Source of the DNA: Lactobacillus helveticus DSM 20075 = CGMCC 1.1877
Lineage (GTDB): Bacteria; Bacillota; Bacilli; Lactobacillales; Lactobacillaceae
NCBI RefSeq assembly: GCF_000160855.1
Contig: NZ_GG700752.1
Location: 61,604-67,010, forward strand
DNA: 5,407 nucleotides
Reading direction: 5' to 3'
The translations under genes were made by a program, and so were the position numbers. Under the pieces are notes generated by a model. That model did not search any database and was not told the DNA's origin. It saw nothing but the letters and a program-made list of their open reading frames with translations. Shown here piece after piece: positions 1-5,407 of the stretch. The number at the start of each line of letters is the position of its first letter. Position 1 is the first letter of the stretch.

Positions 1-522
1 GATATAATTATTGACAGCTTTCCAGTCTCGGTCTGTTAGCCTGTTCGCAATTATCGCGTTAAAATCCTTCGCGATATAGCTGATATTGGCTACAAAGCAA
101 CGAAAAAAGTCTACTATTATGGCTTTAAGGTTCATGCCATTGTAGTGATGACGGCTACTTGCTTGATTATGCAGTTACTAAAGCATCAGTGCATGATGCC
201 AAGGAAACTGCAGAGCTGATGACCAATGCCCATCCTGCTAACCATTATCTTTTAGGCGATGAAGGCTACCTCGGCAAAGATTTAGCTTTCCAGCTAAAAC
301 AAAATGGGCTATAAGCTTTGGACGTCATATCGCAAAAACATGCAAGGTGCTAAAGAGCATAACGATCATCAGCTAATGGCTATCAGAAGAACCATTGAGA
401 GTGACTTTTCCCTGCTTAGCTACTACAACGCTGAAAACAATCGTGCTCGAAACATAACAGGGTTTTAGGAACGACTTGAAATTGTAGTTTTGGCCTACAA
501 TATGGCATATTGTCTAGAATGA
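1..522 (+). pseudogene. IS982-family transposase remnant (3' part, multiply disrupted)
   Basis: This is the decayed C-terminal portion of a DDE transposase, cut by the left window edge. Reading across frames gives IS982-like blocks. Frame 1 has IIDSFPVSVC, with the first catalytic Asp at 13-15. Frame 3 has DDGYLLDYAVTKASVHD and then GDEGYLGK, with the second Asp at 258-260. Frame 1 again has RRTIESDFSLL, with the catalytic Glu at 397-399, and ends with LEIVVLAYNMAYCLE and a TGA at 520-522. Lesions are a TAG at 37-39, a frame change near 142-150, another near 306-311 (frame 3 otherwise stops at TAA 312-314) and a TAG at 466-468. No functional protein can result. All three acidic residues can still be recognised, so decay is probably recent. 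Sampled lines are near 40% GC against about 20-30% in the lanthipeptide genes, which suggests a different origin. I could not define the right terminal inverted repeat with confidence. The family assignment rests on recalled motif pattern. Confidence 0.8.
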
Positions 523-637
523 TTTAACTAGCATCACGCGTAGAGCGTATAACAATTTTACTAATGATAAAAATATATAATTCATACTTGCTGATGAAAA
601 TGTAATTAAAAGTACTGACAAAAAATTGAAAAATATA

Positions 638-666
638 TTGACAATCTAATTTTTCGGGCTTATTAT
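638..666 (+). promoter_or_regulatory. Sigma-A-type promoter of the lanthipeptide operon
   Basis: A perfect -35 TTGACA (638-643) is followed by a 17-bp spacer and a -10 TATTAT (661-666, 5 of 6 to consensus). Transcription would start near 672-675, giving an untranslated leader of about 60 nt before the precursor start at 737. It is the only strong promoter I see upstream of the cluster, and no comparable one precedes the synthetase or transporter. The -10 lies inside a dyad symmetry described separately. Confidence 0.8.
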
Positions 667-736: not shown

Positions 737-865
737 ATGACTATTCATGATGTTTTAGAAACCATAAAAGAAAAGGAACATGAAATTAAAGACAATATTC
801 TTGCTAACTCTGGACAAAGTTGGAGTTGCACCAGCAGCTGTAAGGCACCTACAGTCTTTGATTAA
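737..865 (+). CDS. Class III lanthipeptide precursor peptide
   Basis: This is a 42-residue peptide, the probable substrate of the LanKC synthetase encoded just downstream. The N-terminal half (MTIHDVLETIKEKEHEIK) is charged, free of Cys and Ser, and can form an amphipathic helix. VLETI is reminiscent of the hydrophobic I/V-L-x-L/I leader motif bound by class III enzymes. The C-terminal core, about residues 25-42, is SGQSWSCTSSCKAPTVFD, with five Ser, two Thr and two Cys (C31, C35). Possible ring donors include S25-x2-S28-x2-C31, one residue tighter than the usual S-x2-S-x3-5-C labionin pattern, and S30-x2-S33-x-C35. The tail after C35 has no Cys. The leader cleavage site cannot be placed, and no Gly-Gly motif is present, in line with the peptidase-free transporter. 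The gene sits 71 nt behind the promoter and 12 nt before an attenuator-like hairpin. Identification rests on context, size and composition; I recognise no named family member. Confidence 0.85.
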   Translation: MTIHDVLETIKEKEHEIKDNILANSGQSWSCTSSCKAPTVFD

Positions 866-877
866 AATTTCTATTTT

Positions 878-918
878 CCCTCTTAATTAGTAAATATATT
901 AATTAAGAGGGCTTTTTT
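878..918 (+). terminator. Rho-independent terminator / attenuator between precursor and synthetase
   Basis: CCCTCTTAATTA (878-889) pairs perfectly over 12 bp with TAATTAAGAGGG (900-911), and a T-run follows at 913-918. It begins 12 nt after the precursor stop and ends 2 nt before the synthetase ribosome binding site. No new promoter is visible between hairpin and synthetase. Partial read-through is therefore the likely way the synthetase and transporter are expressed, at lower level than the precursor. This arrangement is common in lanthipeptide operons. Confidence 0.88.
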
Positions 919-934: not shown

Positions 935-2905
935 ATGAGAGAGTTTTTAACTAGATTTCCGCTTGAGTTCTCTACTAGTTCAACAGATAATACTTGTTTT
1001 GCCAAATACTTAGTAGATAATACAATTGCTTCAACATTTGGAGGTTATAAACGACCTTTTTATAACTGCCTTTTTAATAACGGCTACCAATTAGAAGGAT
1101 GGAAGATTCATATTTCACCTTACCTAAAAGATTATGGAAAAGTTTTAACTATTGTCTCCCAAGTAATGTTAAAATACCAAACATCATTTAAATTTGCATA
1201 TTATCTATCTGATTATCTGTTATTATCAGATAAAAACATTAATCCTTCCCAATTTGGAAAATATATAACTATTTATCCTAGAAATAATGCTGAATTTAAA
1301 TTGCTATTAGGTATTTTACATAAAAAATTACAAAGGTTTTCAGGTGTTCGTGTGCCTAGTGATAAACGTTATAAAAATTCTGAAGTTATTTCTTACAGGT
1401 TTGGTGGCTTTTTTCCACAAATTTTTATGACGCGTAATGGTGATATGACCTACAAAATATTAGATGGAGAGGGAAATTTCATCTCTGATGATAGAAAAAC
1501 ATATTTCAAAATACCAAACGGTATTAATCCTCCTTTTCCTTCTAGTTTTAAGAAAGAAAAAATAATATCGCCATGTCTAATTGGACAAAAGACTACAAAA
1601 AAATTTGAAATAATCAATATTATTAGAAGATTAGGGACTGGCAATATATATGAAGGTATAGAATCCAATACTAAAAAACATGTTATTGTAAAAGAAGCCA
1701 GACTAGGTGCTCTTCCGGATAAAAACGAAAGTATATATAGAGCTTGGAACTTAAAAAAGAATGAGACAACCATTTTAAGAAATAATAAAATACGAACTCT
1801 TATCAACATGCCTAAGTACATTGATCAATTATATATAGATGAATCGTTTTATATCGTAGAAGAAAAAATTGACGGATTATCTTTAAGAGAATTACTTCAA
1901 CAAAATTCAATGTTAAATAAAAATCAATCAAAAAATAAAAAACTTGACCTTGATAATGATTTAATCAATATATGGCGTCAAATTCTAACCTTTATCACCC
2001 GTCTTCATTCTTCTGGATATGTTTTAAATGATATTTCAGATGATAACTTTATTTATAACAGACAAACTAAAGAAATAGCGTTAGTTGATGTAGAAACTAT
2101 ACAACCGCAAAAAAAGAATTGCTATAGCGAAATTGCTACAAATAACTTTTGTATAAGAATGCCCTTGAATCTCGACGACTACAATAAAGATTGCTACAAA
2201 CTTTCTCTGTTAATGTTTTACACTGTATTCAATAAAGTAAATGATTTTATATTTGATAAAAATTTCTTTATCAAACGCTTTAATTTATTAAAGGAAAAAT
2301 TAACTACAAATCAAAAAATCATATTATCATCTGCGTTTACTCTCTATTCTCTTTCTAAGTCTAATAGATTAAATAACACAAGCAACTTATGTGATACTTT
2401 AGACTTAAAAAAATTATCGAAATATGATAATAATGAACTCAATGCTGTTTCTATAAAGGAATTAATTGATTTAAAAGATAACCTCTTAACCCAATATACA
2501 ATTCATTCTTCTAATTTAGTTGATTACTTAAAATGTACTCCTTATGTGGGAGAAGCCACCACTTGTTCTTTAATTTATGGCAAGTTAGGTGCAATTTTAG
2601 CATTGAAAAACGAATTAAAAGATATAGATATGACAGCAACTATTCACAAAGCGAAAAGCGCTATTATTGAATTAGAATCAAAAAAGCAATTGAATTTAGG
2701 CTTATTTTTCGGATTAGCAGGTACTACTCTATTTGAATTTTATACAAATACCACATTCGAACAAAATTATTCATTAATTAAACTTTTAGAAAGAATTAAA
2801 AACGAGCCACAAAATAATACCTTATGTAATGGCTATGCCGGAATAACTCTTGCATTACAATTAATCAGTAACAAAAAGGTTATCCTGACTTCACAAAACA
2901 TATAA
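935..2905 (+). CDS. Class III lanthipeptide synthetase LanKC, N-terminal part (lyase, kinase, start of cyclase)
   Basis: This encodes 656 residues from ATG 935. A LanKC installs lanthionine/labionin rings: its kinase phosphorylates Ser/Thr of the precursor, the lyase eliminates phosphate and the cyclase domain adds Cys. Domains, numbered from ATG 935, are as follows. The lyase spans about 1-215 with family motifs GWKIHIS (55-61), GKYITIYPRN (108-117), PSDKRYK and SYRFGGF. The kinase spans about 225-460 with Gly-rich loop LGTGNIYEG (233-241), VIVKEAR (Lys253), catalytic-loop LNDISDDNF (Asp366, Asn371) and the metal-binding DFG equivalent DVE (Asp385). The LanC-like toroid starts near 485, with repeats LIYGKLGA (546-553), LFFGLAGT (590-597) and LCNGYAGI (630-637). 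The frame then breaks: after the A5G run at 2873-2878 it reads eight foreign codons (VILTSQNI) to TAA. A one-base change there joins it to the following frame, giving about 873 residues, a normal LanKC length. The protein is probably cytoplasmic. A class IV enzyme is unlikely because zinc ligands are absent. Confidence 0.88.
   Translation: MREFLTRFPLEFSTSSTDNTCFAKYLVDNTIASTFGGYKRPFYNCLFNNGYQLEGWKIHISPYLKDYGKVLTIVSQVMLKYQTSFKFAYYLSDYLLLSDKNINPSQFGKYITIYPRNNAEFKLLLGILHKKLQRFSGVRVPSDKRYKNSEVISYRFGGFFPQIFMTRNGDMTYKILDGEGNFISDDRKTYFKIPNGINPPFPSSFKKEKIISPCLIGQKTTKKFEIINIIRRLGTGNIYEGIESNTKKHVIVKEARLGALPDKNESIYRAWNLKKNETTILRNNKIRTLINMPKYIDQLYIDESFYIVEEKIDGLSLRELLQQNSMLNKNQSKNKKLDLDNDLINIWRQILTFITRLHSSGYVLNDISDDNFIYNRQTKEIALVDVETIQPQKKNCYSEIATNNFCIRMPLNLDDYNKDCYKLSLLMFYTVFNKVNDFIFDKNFFIKRFNLLKEKLTTNQKIILSSAFTLYSLSKSNRLNNTSNLCDTLDLKKLSKYDNNELNAVSIKELIDLKDNLLTQYTIHSSNLVDYLKCTPYVGEATTCSLIYGKLGAILALKNELKDIDMTATIHKAKSAIIELESKKQLNLGLFFGLAGTTLFEFYTNTTFEQNYSLIKLLERIKNEPQNNTLCNGYAGITLALQLISNKKVILTSQNI
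2873..2878 (+). other. Frame junction (A5G run) splitting the LanKC gene
   Basis: In the synthetase frame the codons are AAC AAA AAG GTT. Shifting back one base after AAG, or adding one A to the run, gives N-K-K-G-Y-P-D-F-T-K-H-I-T-S-M-L, which runs into the downstream LanC-like frame without a stop. The downstream frame is open from 2872. AAA-AAG resembles bacterial -1 slippery codons, but the preceding base is C, not the favoured A. The only nearby hairpin is weak (TAACAT/ATGTTA at 2903-2916), and I see no upstream Shine-Dalgarno-like stimulator. An indel or a homopolymer sequencing error is the simplest reading. Confidence 0.8.
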
Positions 2906-2910
2906 CATCA

Positions 2911-3555
2911 ATGTTAAAAAAGTTAAAAAAAGATATTGGAAATACAACAGATGAAGGTTTAGAATATGGTGATTTAGGTACTGCACTTGTATTCCTAATG
3001 GAATATAAAAGAACTAAAAATATTAATTATTTATCTAGCGTAAAATTAATATTAAAAAACTATCTAGAAATATACAAAAATGAAGATCCATTTACAGGGA
3101 TTTCGTATAATTCAAAGAAATGGCCCAATATTAGATCTCCTTATTTAATGAACGGATCTGCTGGTTTAGTTTTTATTTTGTTTAAGTATTATTGTTTAAC
3201 CGATAATGGAAACTGGGATTTGTTAGATAGATATATTGATTCCTTAGACTTACCTTTTACGTATAACTATGGAATGAATAATGGAACTGCTGGTATACTG
3301 CTTGTTATTAAAACTATACTAAGATCGCGAAAAAAGATTCCTAAGCGTCTTTACACAAAACTAAAGCATTTAAATGATTACTACAATAATCATTTATTTT
3401 CTAGCTTTATAAATTCCAAAAAACATTCTGGATGGCCATCAGACGGGCAAGCCTTTATTTCAGATGATATAGGTGCTGGAACGCTTGGTATTCTATCTGC
3501 AATTACCTTAGAAATGAATAAAGGTGTTCACCATGACTATTACTTCATTCTTTAA
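2911..3555 (+). CDS. LanKC synthetase, C-terminal part (LanC-like cyclase remainder, out of frame)
   Basis: This 214-residue frame holds the remaining four helical repeats of the cyclase toroid: EYGDLGT (18-24), LMNGSAGL (79-86), MNNGTAGI (122-129) and IGAGTLGI (187-194). With the three repeats upstream this makes the seven expected for a LanC fold. None of the late repeats carries the Cys, Cys-His zinc ligands of class I, II and IV cyclases, which is the class III hallmark. The ATG at 2911 has no ribosome binding site and sits within the toroid, so it is unlikely to be a true start. The frame is open back to 2872 and almost certainly belongs to the preceding reading frame, one base out of register. 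It could yield a separate cyclase piece only if translation re-initiates after the TAA at 2903-2905. Its last 23 bases overlap the transporter gene. Confidence 0.75.
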   Translation: MLKKLKKDIGNTTDEGLEYGDLGTALVFLMEYKRTKNINYLSSVKLILKNYLEIYKNEDPFTGISYNSKKWPNIRSPYLMNGSAGLVFILFKYYCLTDNGNWDLLDRYIDSLDLPFTYNYGMNNGTAGILLVIKTILRSRKKIPKRLYTKLKHLNDYYNNHLFSSFINSKKHSGWPSDGQAFISDDIGAGTLGILSAITLEMNKGVHHDYYFIL

Positions 3556-5125
3556 AAAATTACTAATTAAAAACAAATTTTTATTTTTTACGTTGATAAC
3601 AACTAGTGCATTTGCATCCTTAGATGGGATTATCTCCCCTTACATAATTGGAAAAATAACTAACACACTCTCTCAAAAAAATTTCAATGATATTCCTAGA
3701 ATTCTCATATTATACCTTGTTTTAATGCTTTTTTTGAATATAAGTTTTTATCTTTGGCAATTTTGTTGGGGAAAAATTATCAAATCTAGTAATCAATTTT
3801 TACGTTCAAGAGCTTTTAATACTTTCACCTATTCTCCTAGTGAAAGTAAAATGGCAAATACATTGAACTTCATTAATGTCAATGTTAAACAAATTGAGAA
3901 TCAATGTATTGATTCAGTCATTACCTTGATTTATTGTATTGATCAAACTATTGTCTCGCTTATATATATTCTAAATATAAATGGTATTGCAGCTTTAGTT
4001 TTCCTATTTTGTGGTTTATTACCTGCAGCAGTTCCTAGACTCACAAGAAATTGGATTCAAGATGGAACTAAAAGCTGGAATCAGAGCTATGAAATTTACA
4101 ATTTAAAGATAAGTGATGCTGTACATGGTTTTAATACTATTAGACATGCTAATGCTTATACAAGATTAAAATTATTTATTAAAAATGCGTTGCTAATGGA
4201 GGAAAGAAAGTATTTTTTTATGAACTTTCGTCGTAATACTTCTAACTTTTTTGCTCAAGTTTCATATACTTTTTCTATGGTTATCTCTTTAGCAGTAGGA
4301 TCATTTTTTGTAGTCAAGGGGCAAATACTTGTTGGAGGGTTAATTTCACTTTTTCTAGCATCTGATCGCTTAACTAGCCCAATTATTTCAATAGTAAATA
4401 TTACTAATCAGTTGAATTCGGTTCGCCCTTTATTAGAAAATACAGTATTACAAAAGCCAGAGCCAAGACAATACGATAACCTATCGTTTGTAAATCTTTC
4501 TGACAAAAAAAAGATTATCTTTGATCATTGTACTCTTGGATATAATAATCATGCTATATTAAAGAATATTAATTTTGAAATTTTTGAAGGAGATAAAGTT
4601 TTAATAACTGGAAGATCTGGAATTGGCAAGTCAACTTTATTTAAAAGTTTGTTAAATGAATTACCTTTGATTAAAGGTAAAATTTTAATTGATAAGCAGT
4701 TAAATAAAAATAATTTCCTTTCTAATTTTGGAATTGTTGGGCAAGATACATATATTTTTTCAGAATCATTACGTTTCAATCTGACTTTAGGAAAAGATAT
4801 TCCTTCTTCTCGTCTAATTAAAGTTTTGAAAAAAGTTAAGTTAGAATATTTAGCAAATAAAAATTATTTAGACACACAAATTGGTGATAAAGGATTATCT
4901 TTATCTGGTGGAGAGAAACGAAAAGTAGAAATTGCTCGTGCATTATTGAATAAAAAGGACTTTTTACTTGTTGATGAAGGTTTATCAGGTCTTGATGATA
5001 ATAGTCGCAAACAAATTTTCGCTCTATTACAAAGTCTTCCTCAAACAATTATTGAGATTGAACATATAATGAGTATTGAAGATAAACAAAAATTTGATCA
5101 AGTTATTAATTTAGACACTAAGTGA
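3533..5125 (+). CDS. ABC half-transporter, probable lanthipeptide exporter (LanT-like, no peptidase domain)
   Basis: This 530-residue fused membrane-ATPase protein would dimerise in the cytoplasmic membrane and export the lanthipeptide. The start is ATG 3533, because AAAGGTG (3520-3526) is well placed 6 nt upstream. A GTG at 3524 lies within that motif. About six hydrophobic segments lie in residues 1-290, for example near 16-40, 55-78, 127-147, 150-170, 240-262 and 268-285. The nucleotide-binding domain begins near 325 and is intact: Walker A GRSGIGKS (360-367), Q-loop GIVGQD, signature LSGGE (457-461), Walker B FLLVDE (477-482), D-loop SGLD (485-488) and switch His511. There is no N-terminal C39 peptidase, so the leader must be removed elsewhere, as is usual in class III clusters. 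The start overlaps the end of the synthetase frame by 23 nt, which suggests translational coupling. It could also provide self-protection; I see nothing that separates these roles. Confidence 0.9.
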   Translation: MTITSFFKKLLIKNKFLFFTLITTSAFASLDGIISPYIIGKITNTLSQKNFNDIPRILILYLVLMLFLNISFYLWQFCWGKIIKSSNQFLRSRAFNTFTYSPSESKMANTLNFINVNVKQIENQCIDSVITLIYCIDQTIVSLIYILNINGIAALVFLFCGLLPAAVPRLTRNWIQDGTKSWNQSYEIYNLKISDAVHGFNTIRHANAYTRLKLFIKNALLMEERKYFFMNFRRNTSNFFAQVSYTFSMVISLAVGSFFVVKGQILVGGLISLFLASDRLTSPIISIVNITNQLNSVRPLLENTVLQKPEPRQYDNLSFVNLSDKKKIIFDHCTLGYNNHAILKNINFEIFEGDKVLITGRSGIGKSTLFKSLLNELPLIKGKILIDKQLNKNNFLSNFGIVGQDTYIFSESLRFNLTLGKDIPSSRLIKVLKKVKLEYLANKNYLDTQIGDKGLSLSGGEKRKVEIARALLNKKDFLLVDEGLSGLDDNSRKQIFALLQSLPQTIIEIEHIMSIEDKQKFDQVINLDTK

Positions 5126-5151
5126 TATTCATCAAAAAGAGTCCGAAAAAA

Positions 5152-5208
5152 TTAGAAATAAAATCCTAGTTAAGGTACAATCCTGAGTTTGACAGTTTAG
5201 AAATAAAA
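5152..5208. repeat. 12-bp direct repeat, 45 bp apart
   Basis: TTAGAAATAAAA occurs at 5152-5163 and again at 5197-5208, between the transporter stop and the terminator. The second copy runs into the A-tract of the terminator. It could be a recombination or insertion scar, or chance in AT-rich DNA. No mobile-element ends can be recognised around it. Confidence 0.4.
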
Positions 5209-5253
5209 AAAGCCTCCTAAAGTTTATTATATTAAGTTTTTTGGGGCTTTTTT
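5205..5253. terminator. Bidirectional rho-independent terminator between convergent genes
   Basis: AAAAAAGCC (5206-5214) pairs with GGCTTTTTT (5245-5253). The stem continues, with a bulged T, through CC (5216-5217)/GG (5243-5244) and A/T pairs. T-runs occur on both strands (5248-5253 on +, 5205-5211 as T on -). It closes the lanthipeptide operon 80 nt after the transporter stop. It also serves the minus-strand gene on the right, whose last codons lie within the stem. Confidence 0.8.
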
Positions 5254-5407
5254 AAGTCTAATTTTTCTGCGTACTTTTTCTCTTTTTTGGTTTGCTTCAA
5301 AATTTTTTTGATCTTTTTCTGTGTAATCAGCTCATTGTCTAACTTTTCATGTAATTCATCAGTCAAGCTGGTATTTCATATAAATCATAATGAGTATTGG
5401 TTTTAGC
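5232..5407 (-). pseudogene. 3' end of an unidentified minus-strand gene, apparently frame-broken
   Basis: On the minus strand an open stretch from 5366 to a TAA at 5234-5232 encodes 44 residues, beginning LTDELHEKLDNELIT and continuing with a very Lys-rich, probably coiled-coil tail (KKIKKILKQTKKEKKYAEK). No ATG or ribosome binding site precedes it, and a TGA stands four codons upstream in that frame. Another minus-strand frame enters from the window edge as AKTNTHYDLYEIPA and stops at exactly this point. The two join if one base is added or removed near 5366, which suggests one gene with a frameshift. The charged C-terminal tail is uninformative and I do not recognise the family. The gene is cut by the window edge. 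Confidence 0.45.

Follow-up and report, generated by a model that had tools for sequence, protein, structure and literature searches.

The described systems closest to the one studied here are class III lanthipeptides of the Bacillota. Andalusicin of Bacillus thuringiensis (ThurA1, ThurKC) is made with a three-domain, zinc-free LanKC and carries a labionin, and the published accounts describe its cluster as lacking a protease gene (PMC10604976; PMC11557216). The paenithopeptins and bacinapeptins (Pre_24; Paenibacillus, Bacillus) are described as having a single S-x2-S-x(2-5)-C motif in each core, an exporter, and leader proteases encoded partly outside the cluster (PMC8960859). We analysed a 5,407-nucleotide stretch of Lactobacillus helveticus DSM 20075 (contig NZ_GG700752.1, positions 61,604 to 67,010; the window), in which a 42-codon gene precedes a gene for a LanKC and a gene for an ATP-binding cassette (ABC) exporter. 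The window resembles andalusicin in its class III, three-domain, zinc-free LanKC, and the paenithopeptins in the single motif and the exporter; no protease or tailoring gene was found in it. We put at roughly 0.5 the probability that the small gene encodes a class III precursor whose core is likely converted to a labionin (Ser25/Ser28/Cys31) directly followed by a methyllanthionine (Thr32/Cys35), and whose product is then exported.

The locus differs from the known systems in its core and its leader. Andalusicin is reported to have a 23-residue core with many dehydrated residues, a single, terminal cysteine (Cys23) and N-methylation, whereas the window precursor has a short core with a second conserved cysteine, and there is no methyltransferase gene in the window. 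In the paenithopeptins the labionin is described as lying inside a disulfide ring, and their clusters contain methyltransferases. Precursors near related LanKCs carry LELQ leaders of the Pre_24 type, from which the window leader differs. Membership in the Pre_24/andalusicin group was rejected, because the leader is not LELQ and because a second cysteine and a tail follow the labionin motif. A Paenibacillus lentus precursor (LP) has the S-x2-S-x2-C spacing in print (PMC11594732), but is described with a LALQ leader and a Cys-terminal core containing one cysteine. Noursin (LanKC-Hbt) is similar in that a labionin and one further ring are reported to come from one LanKC (PMC10206099); its second ring is formed via a histidine, in place of which the window core has a second cysteine. 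As the window precursor has no histidine past residue 15, noursin-like membership was also rejected. The Streptococcus enzymes SalKC and PneKC (PDB sequence search; enzymes compared) show about 20% identity and lie outside the clade described below by sequence score.

The precursor gene and its family

An earlier interpretation of this DNA (the original prediction) had read the small gene as a class III-type precursor adjoining a LanKC. The 42-codon open reading frame (ORF; 737-865, + strand), its core (SGQSWSCTSSCKAPTVFD) and the residue numbering were reproduced in our ORF analysis, and the class assignment was supported by domain searches and by the S-x2-S-x(2-5)-C motif in the small gene adjoining the enzyme. 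The ORF is preceded by a Shine-Dalgarno-like sequence (GGAAAGGA). An alternative in-frame ATG at 707 would yield a 52-residue precursor, and P0001, the nearest relative, is listed with the longer start; this start was rejected, since it has no clear ribosome site and most relatives use the start equivalent to 737.

Querying about 5.8 billion proteins with the 42-mer returned four relatives, with P0001 (95%) listed for Lactobacillus helveticus. Other precursors were reached via the enzyme alone, as neighbours of clade LanKCs in Sporosarcina luteola, Oceanobacillus limi and genome G062; the G062 precursor is P0073, which is listed for Bacillales and Lysinibacillus louembei and is already named 'Lantibiotic' in UniRef. 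A profile search gave 11 proteins. For the comparison of distinct intact precursors duplicates were removed (L010 is P0073 and L002 is P0075, each counted once), and P0077 and P0079, in which the leader survives without the core, were dropped. The resulting 11 members, the window's included, are of a Lactobacillus type and a Bacillales type, and all of them contain A-N-S-x2-S-x-S-C-T-x(2,3)-C (11 of 13 if P0077 and P0079 are counted too). Profile searches are inherently biased towards look-alikes; from this bias the three enzyme-led loci are free because they were found through the enzyme and not through the peptide, and they have the same gene order as the window (precursor, LanKC, exporter). 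Taking into account that a precursor sharing the core motif stands upstream of the LanKC in 3/3 other clade loci readable as DNA, the comparison indicates that the precursor gene is more than chance. Loss of the small gene from homologous loci, which the original prediction had named as evidence that would count against it, was not seen: in all three (L001, L002, L010) it still accompanies the enzyme.

Both S25 and S28 are present in 11/11 members, and conservation extends beyond the labionin motif to S30, T32 and the second cysteine two or three residues past T32. The pattern [ST]x2[ST]x[ST]C[ST]x(2,3)C was found in none of the ORFs of 25-90 codons in the loci of 47 other LanKCs, which mostly comprise the match and 1500 bases on each side, so that a more distant precursor would escape. 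The original prediction could name no lanthipeptide with this core, and six core strings of the family were not found in the literature searched. The enzyme class is thus ordinary; core and leader are distinct and conserved, with no description found in that literature. As the serine/cysteine pattern is common to all eleven members, the window peptide is no isolated case but belongs to a branch, apparently uncharacterised, of a known class of peptides.

No class III precursor model in Pfam or NCBIfam matched any of the 15 precursor rows scanned, and such a divergent branch of lanthipeptides is therefore easily overlooked in lactobacilli. Weak one-member NCBIfam matches (thiazolyl_BerA, 0.0053; streptosactin, 0.073) and two two-member Pfam matches (best 0.097) were taken as chance. 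P0077 (20 contigs) and P0079 (1 contig) have an intact leader with the core lost or in another frame; broken alleles of the precursor seem to be common in metagenomes.

The LanKC clade

Class III (LanKC-type) membership is well supported. Lyase, Ser/Thr-kinase and LanC-like domains were all detected with Pfam (RamC_N 3.4e-35 and Pkinase 4.1e-9 in the first LanKC frame; LANC_like 2.9e-7 in the second), divided between two frames in the window and joined in one in relatives such as P0005. In the relatives the LanC-like domain is complete, as judged by sequence comparison and by a model. The window fragment and 8 clade LanKCs read NNG, NYG or TYG where CHG would stand, and their WCxG site is without cysteine. 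The cyclases of the clade thus lack the Cys/Cys-His zinc ligands, as is characteristic of class III, and this absence rules out class IV (LanL), whose cyclases bind zinc.

Trees were built from LanKC proteins longer than 780 aa, leaving out P0006, P0009, P0010 and both window fragments. In a quick tree of 47 LanKCs, P0005, P0007, P0008, P0011, P0012, P0013 (Oceanobacillus limi), L001 (Sporosarcina luteola) and L010 grouped together with 100% support in the SH-like approximate likelihood ratio test (SH-aLRT), on a long stem and with long-branch warnings. In a more careful tree, from which long-branched and other rows were also left out to keep 27, support for the clade was 100/100, and a single change was seen in 100% of the 200 bootstrap trees. 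ThurKC is reported to carry Phe770-Asp771 at the Cys-His zinc-ligand site (PMC10604976). The lack of such a pair was considered as a hallmark of the clade and rejected, since Phe/Tyr-Asp occurs in just 5/39 other LanKC rows (P0020, P0027, P0041, P0045 and P0060, all outside the clade); P0059, also outside, shares Asn-Asn with it. The LanKCs of the window family lie apart from the tree section that contains P0020, P0027 and P0045, which on account of this ThurKC-like motif would stand for ThurKC.

Gene order, domain make-up, conserved motif and enzyme clade were established directly. Somewhat below even we put the chance that these loci, of Lactobacillus type and Bacillales type, form a class III branch in which labionin and methyllanthionine are fused back to back over one Cys-Thr peptide bond, with its own zinc-free LanKC clade and a leader without LxLQ.

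Ring pattern and alternatives

The ring pattern we infer from the core motif and from class III biochemistry. The leader helix would be bound by LanKC, and serines and threonines of the core would be dehydrated by its kinase and lyase domains, through leader-guided phosphorylation followed by elimination. Cys31 would be added to one dehydrated serine by the zinc-free cyclase, and closure of a second, carbon-carbon link would complete the labionin with S25 and S28; Cys35 would then be joined to dehydrated Thr32. The calculated monoisotopic mass of the untagged 42-mer is 4704.251 Da without modification, and would be 4650.219 Da after three dehydrations and 4632.209 Da after four. Since no protease gene is present in the window, the leader would probably be cut off by a protease encoded elsewhere, on which Bacillota class III clusters are said often to depend (PMC8960859), and secretion would fall to the neighbouring ABC exporter. 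By analogy with andalusicin, our guess is that the product is most likely a narrow-spectrum antibacterial.

Several observations weigh against the labionin-methyllanthionine reading. No product or mass is on record for the precursor family. From T32 to the cysteine the Lactobacillus type and Oceanobacillus have a distance of 2 and the remaining Bacillales members one of 3, and P0002 has a third cysteine at position 33. S30 is as conserved as T32, leaving a ring between S30 and C35 as an alternative. The leader reads DVLETI or LRDxLERL in the alignment where LxLQ is usual, a motif called highly conserved (PMC10206099); in ThurKC leader Gln(-15) is described as hydrogen-bonded to the enzyme, and this contact has no counterpart in the leader of the window family. 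The best NCBIfam model of the enzymes is NF038151, ahead of the class IV model NF038150, but the scores of 249-344 bits fall far short of its curated cut-off (575). Finally, the LanKC reading frame is broken between about 2870 and 2911, on which the original prediction was silent, so that, barring an error in the sequencing, no full enzyme would be made from the DNA as read.

The window copy of the cluster may accordingly be inactive, and the chance that the cluster is decaying and nothing is made in this strain comes fairly close to even; such decay is compatible with any of the ring readings at the level of the family. Besides the broken LanKC frame, it would fit with the broken IS982 copy upstream, with the loss of the core in P0077 and P0079 and with a Lactobacillus crispatus record that retains just a fragmented transporter. 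Intact LanKC relatives exist, however (P0009, P0005-P0008), the precursor and exporter frames of the window are intact, and P0009, which is 100% identical across the shared 54% of the query, continues in frame, making a sequencing error possible.

Among the ring readings, the labionin-methyllanthionine pattern competes first with two simple thioether rings made by the same enzyme, in which C31 would be bridged to S25 or S28 by a lanthionine and C35 would close a (methyl)lanthionine. This is unlikely, though it deserves consideration, as class III enzymes are reported to make either product from S-x2-S-x(2-5)-C (PMC11251773; PMC7268733). A single lanthionine would not need both S25 and S28, which are kept without exception, and characterised Bacillota examples such as andalusicin and the paenithopeptins are described as bearing labionin.

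The main alternative for the second ring, less probable again, is a lanthionine S30-C35 overlapping the labionin, with the rings interlocked. S30 is present in 11/11 members, and this arrangement is the closest surviving form of the overlapping rings originally proposed. It requires a larger ring (x4 or x5) though the compact T32-x2/3-C35 is available, and S30 may be kept for other reasons, as a serine also precedes the labionin cysteine in LxLQ-type cores (TISNSCNK). A disulfide C31-C35 with serines and threonines merely dehydrated is improbable: paenithopeptins are reported to bear a disulfide (PMC8960859), but on top of a labionin, whereas the window core has two cysteines only, and the relatives have kept a complete LanC-like domain. 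A second labionin set S30/S33/C35 overlapping the first is the least probable of all, for although it can be drawn in the window core and in 6/11 members (x1 or x2 before the cysteine), S33 is replaced by Cys or Gly in the other 5/11.

For the last reason the overlapping set S30-x2-S33-x-C35 of the original prediction was rejected, and the small interlocked rings it had placed around Trp29 are not the conserved design either, because Trp29 is Asn in the Bacillales type and the second set is limited to those six members. Nor is the spacing unusually tight, as had been claimed: S-x2-S-x2-C falls within the published class III motif S-x2-S-x(2-5)-C (PMC8960859; PMC11251773), and [ST]x2[ST]x2C is present in 28/47 LxLQ-type precursor-like ORFs near other LanKCs (counted by hand among ORFs chosen mechanically, some of which are not precursors). 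The Paenibacillus lentus precursor, reported to end in WSTASNHC with the x2 spacing, gave a mass matching seven dehydrations (PMC11594732). What stands of the original prediction is the class III precursor beside a LanKC, the core with no match in the literature searched and the retention of the gene, without the tight spacing, the second set and the rings around Trp29.

The choice between labionin and lanthionine and the action of a zinc-free cyclase have been posed as questions (PMC10604976). The family offers a very short, strictly conserved two-cysteine substrate and a clade enzyme with its own zinc-site residues, and both questions could therefore be approached by simple co-expression.

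Other features of the window and distribution

Features of the window (positions in the 5,407-nucleotide stretch)
Feature	Position	Strand	Basis and remarks
IS982 copy, transposase frame broken, upstream of cluster	7..542	+	Pfam/NCBIfam and plasmid DNA match
Promoter-like site TTGACA, 17, TATTAT	638..666	+	consensus match only, 11/12
Lanthipeptide precursor gene, 42 aa	737..865	+	ORF call; relatives from protein and profile searches
Leader, M1-N24	737..808	+	alignments, predicted boundary; DVLETI replaces usual LxLQ
Core, S25-D42	809..862	+	predicted labionin S25/S28/C31 and methyllanthionine T32/C35, motif-based, chemistry inferred
Likely attenuator: precursor-LanKC intergenic hairpin with T run	878..911	+	-20.6 kcal/mol, z -4.98
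LanKC 5' part, coding for lyase (RamC_N) and kinase and for the beginning of the cyclase domain; early frame end	935..2905	+	Pfam, NCBIfam
LanKC remainder: rest of LANC_like cyclase domain, other frame	2911..3555	+	Pfam; P0009, P0005 continue in frame
ABC exporter: membrane and ATPase domains; overlaps LanKC end	3533..5125	+	Pfam, NCBIfam

The region contains 6 promoter-like sites against 2.9 ± 1.7 in shuffles, which is weak evidence for the one listed. The hairpin probably lowers expression of the enzyme relative to the precursor; a similar one is present in L010, and none was found when looked for in L001 and L002. The exporter, in which Pfam detected no peptidase domain, is 32-36% identical to the exporters adjoining the LanKCs of L001, L002 and L010. 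Plasmid DNA of Lactobacillus kefiranofaciens matches the IS982 copy at 90.7% identity. Transfer RNA and Rfam scans of the window gave no matches, nor did positions 5100-5407 match plasmids or phages.

LanKC matches at E<=1e-20 were obtained in 23/398 Bacilli genomes, two of them at clade level (G002, G062). Within the family of G002 a LanKC match was found in 1/159 genomes, G002 itself, and within that of G180 (taken as Lactobacillaceae) 31/335 had a LanKC-like match, none of them close (best E 3.2e-51, local identities 25-35%). The precursor profile gave a match at E<=1 in 146 of 200 Bacilli genomes, of which only that in G062 (2.5e-20) was taken as real; the next best (1.3e-4) was rejected as lying in a frame with a stop. 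Among PLSDB plasmids 78 records matched LanKC, all below 60% identity, and the precursor DNA gave only a 25-base match (E 0.3, three Listeria records), taken as chance. Viral contigs searched with LanKC and precursor alignments contained no relatives. The Lactobacillus crispatus record (L057, NZ_CP076525.1; 9163 bases, linear, labelled plasmid) has a fragmented exporter relic at 7127-8718 with 72.6% DNA identity; the match begins in the last LanKC codons, and the remaining LanKC and the precursor are gone. The rarity of genome matches together with this remnant indicates that the cluster is sporadic and was partly lost at least once. A class III cluster has been reported in a Lysinibacillus strain (PMC9867215), which may be an earlier sighting of a Bacillales member of the family.

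Two small unnamed genes follow the LanKC of the Lactobacillus helsingborgensis plasmid pIBH003-1 from bee gut (L004, 6534-6838); with their LALQ leaders and SGQSVYC and SGKSNHC cores they are likely class III precursors. Near a LanKC-like gene of G286 (L030, 782-1012) there is a 76-codon ORF ending in SGSCYSNSCTN, whose leader is longer and does not resemble class III precursor leaders.
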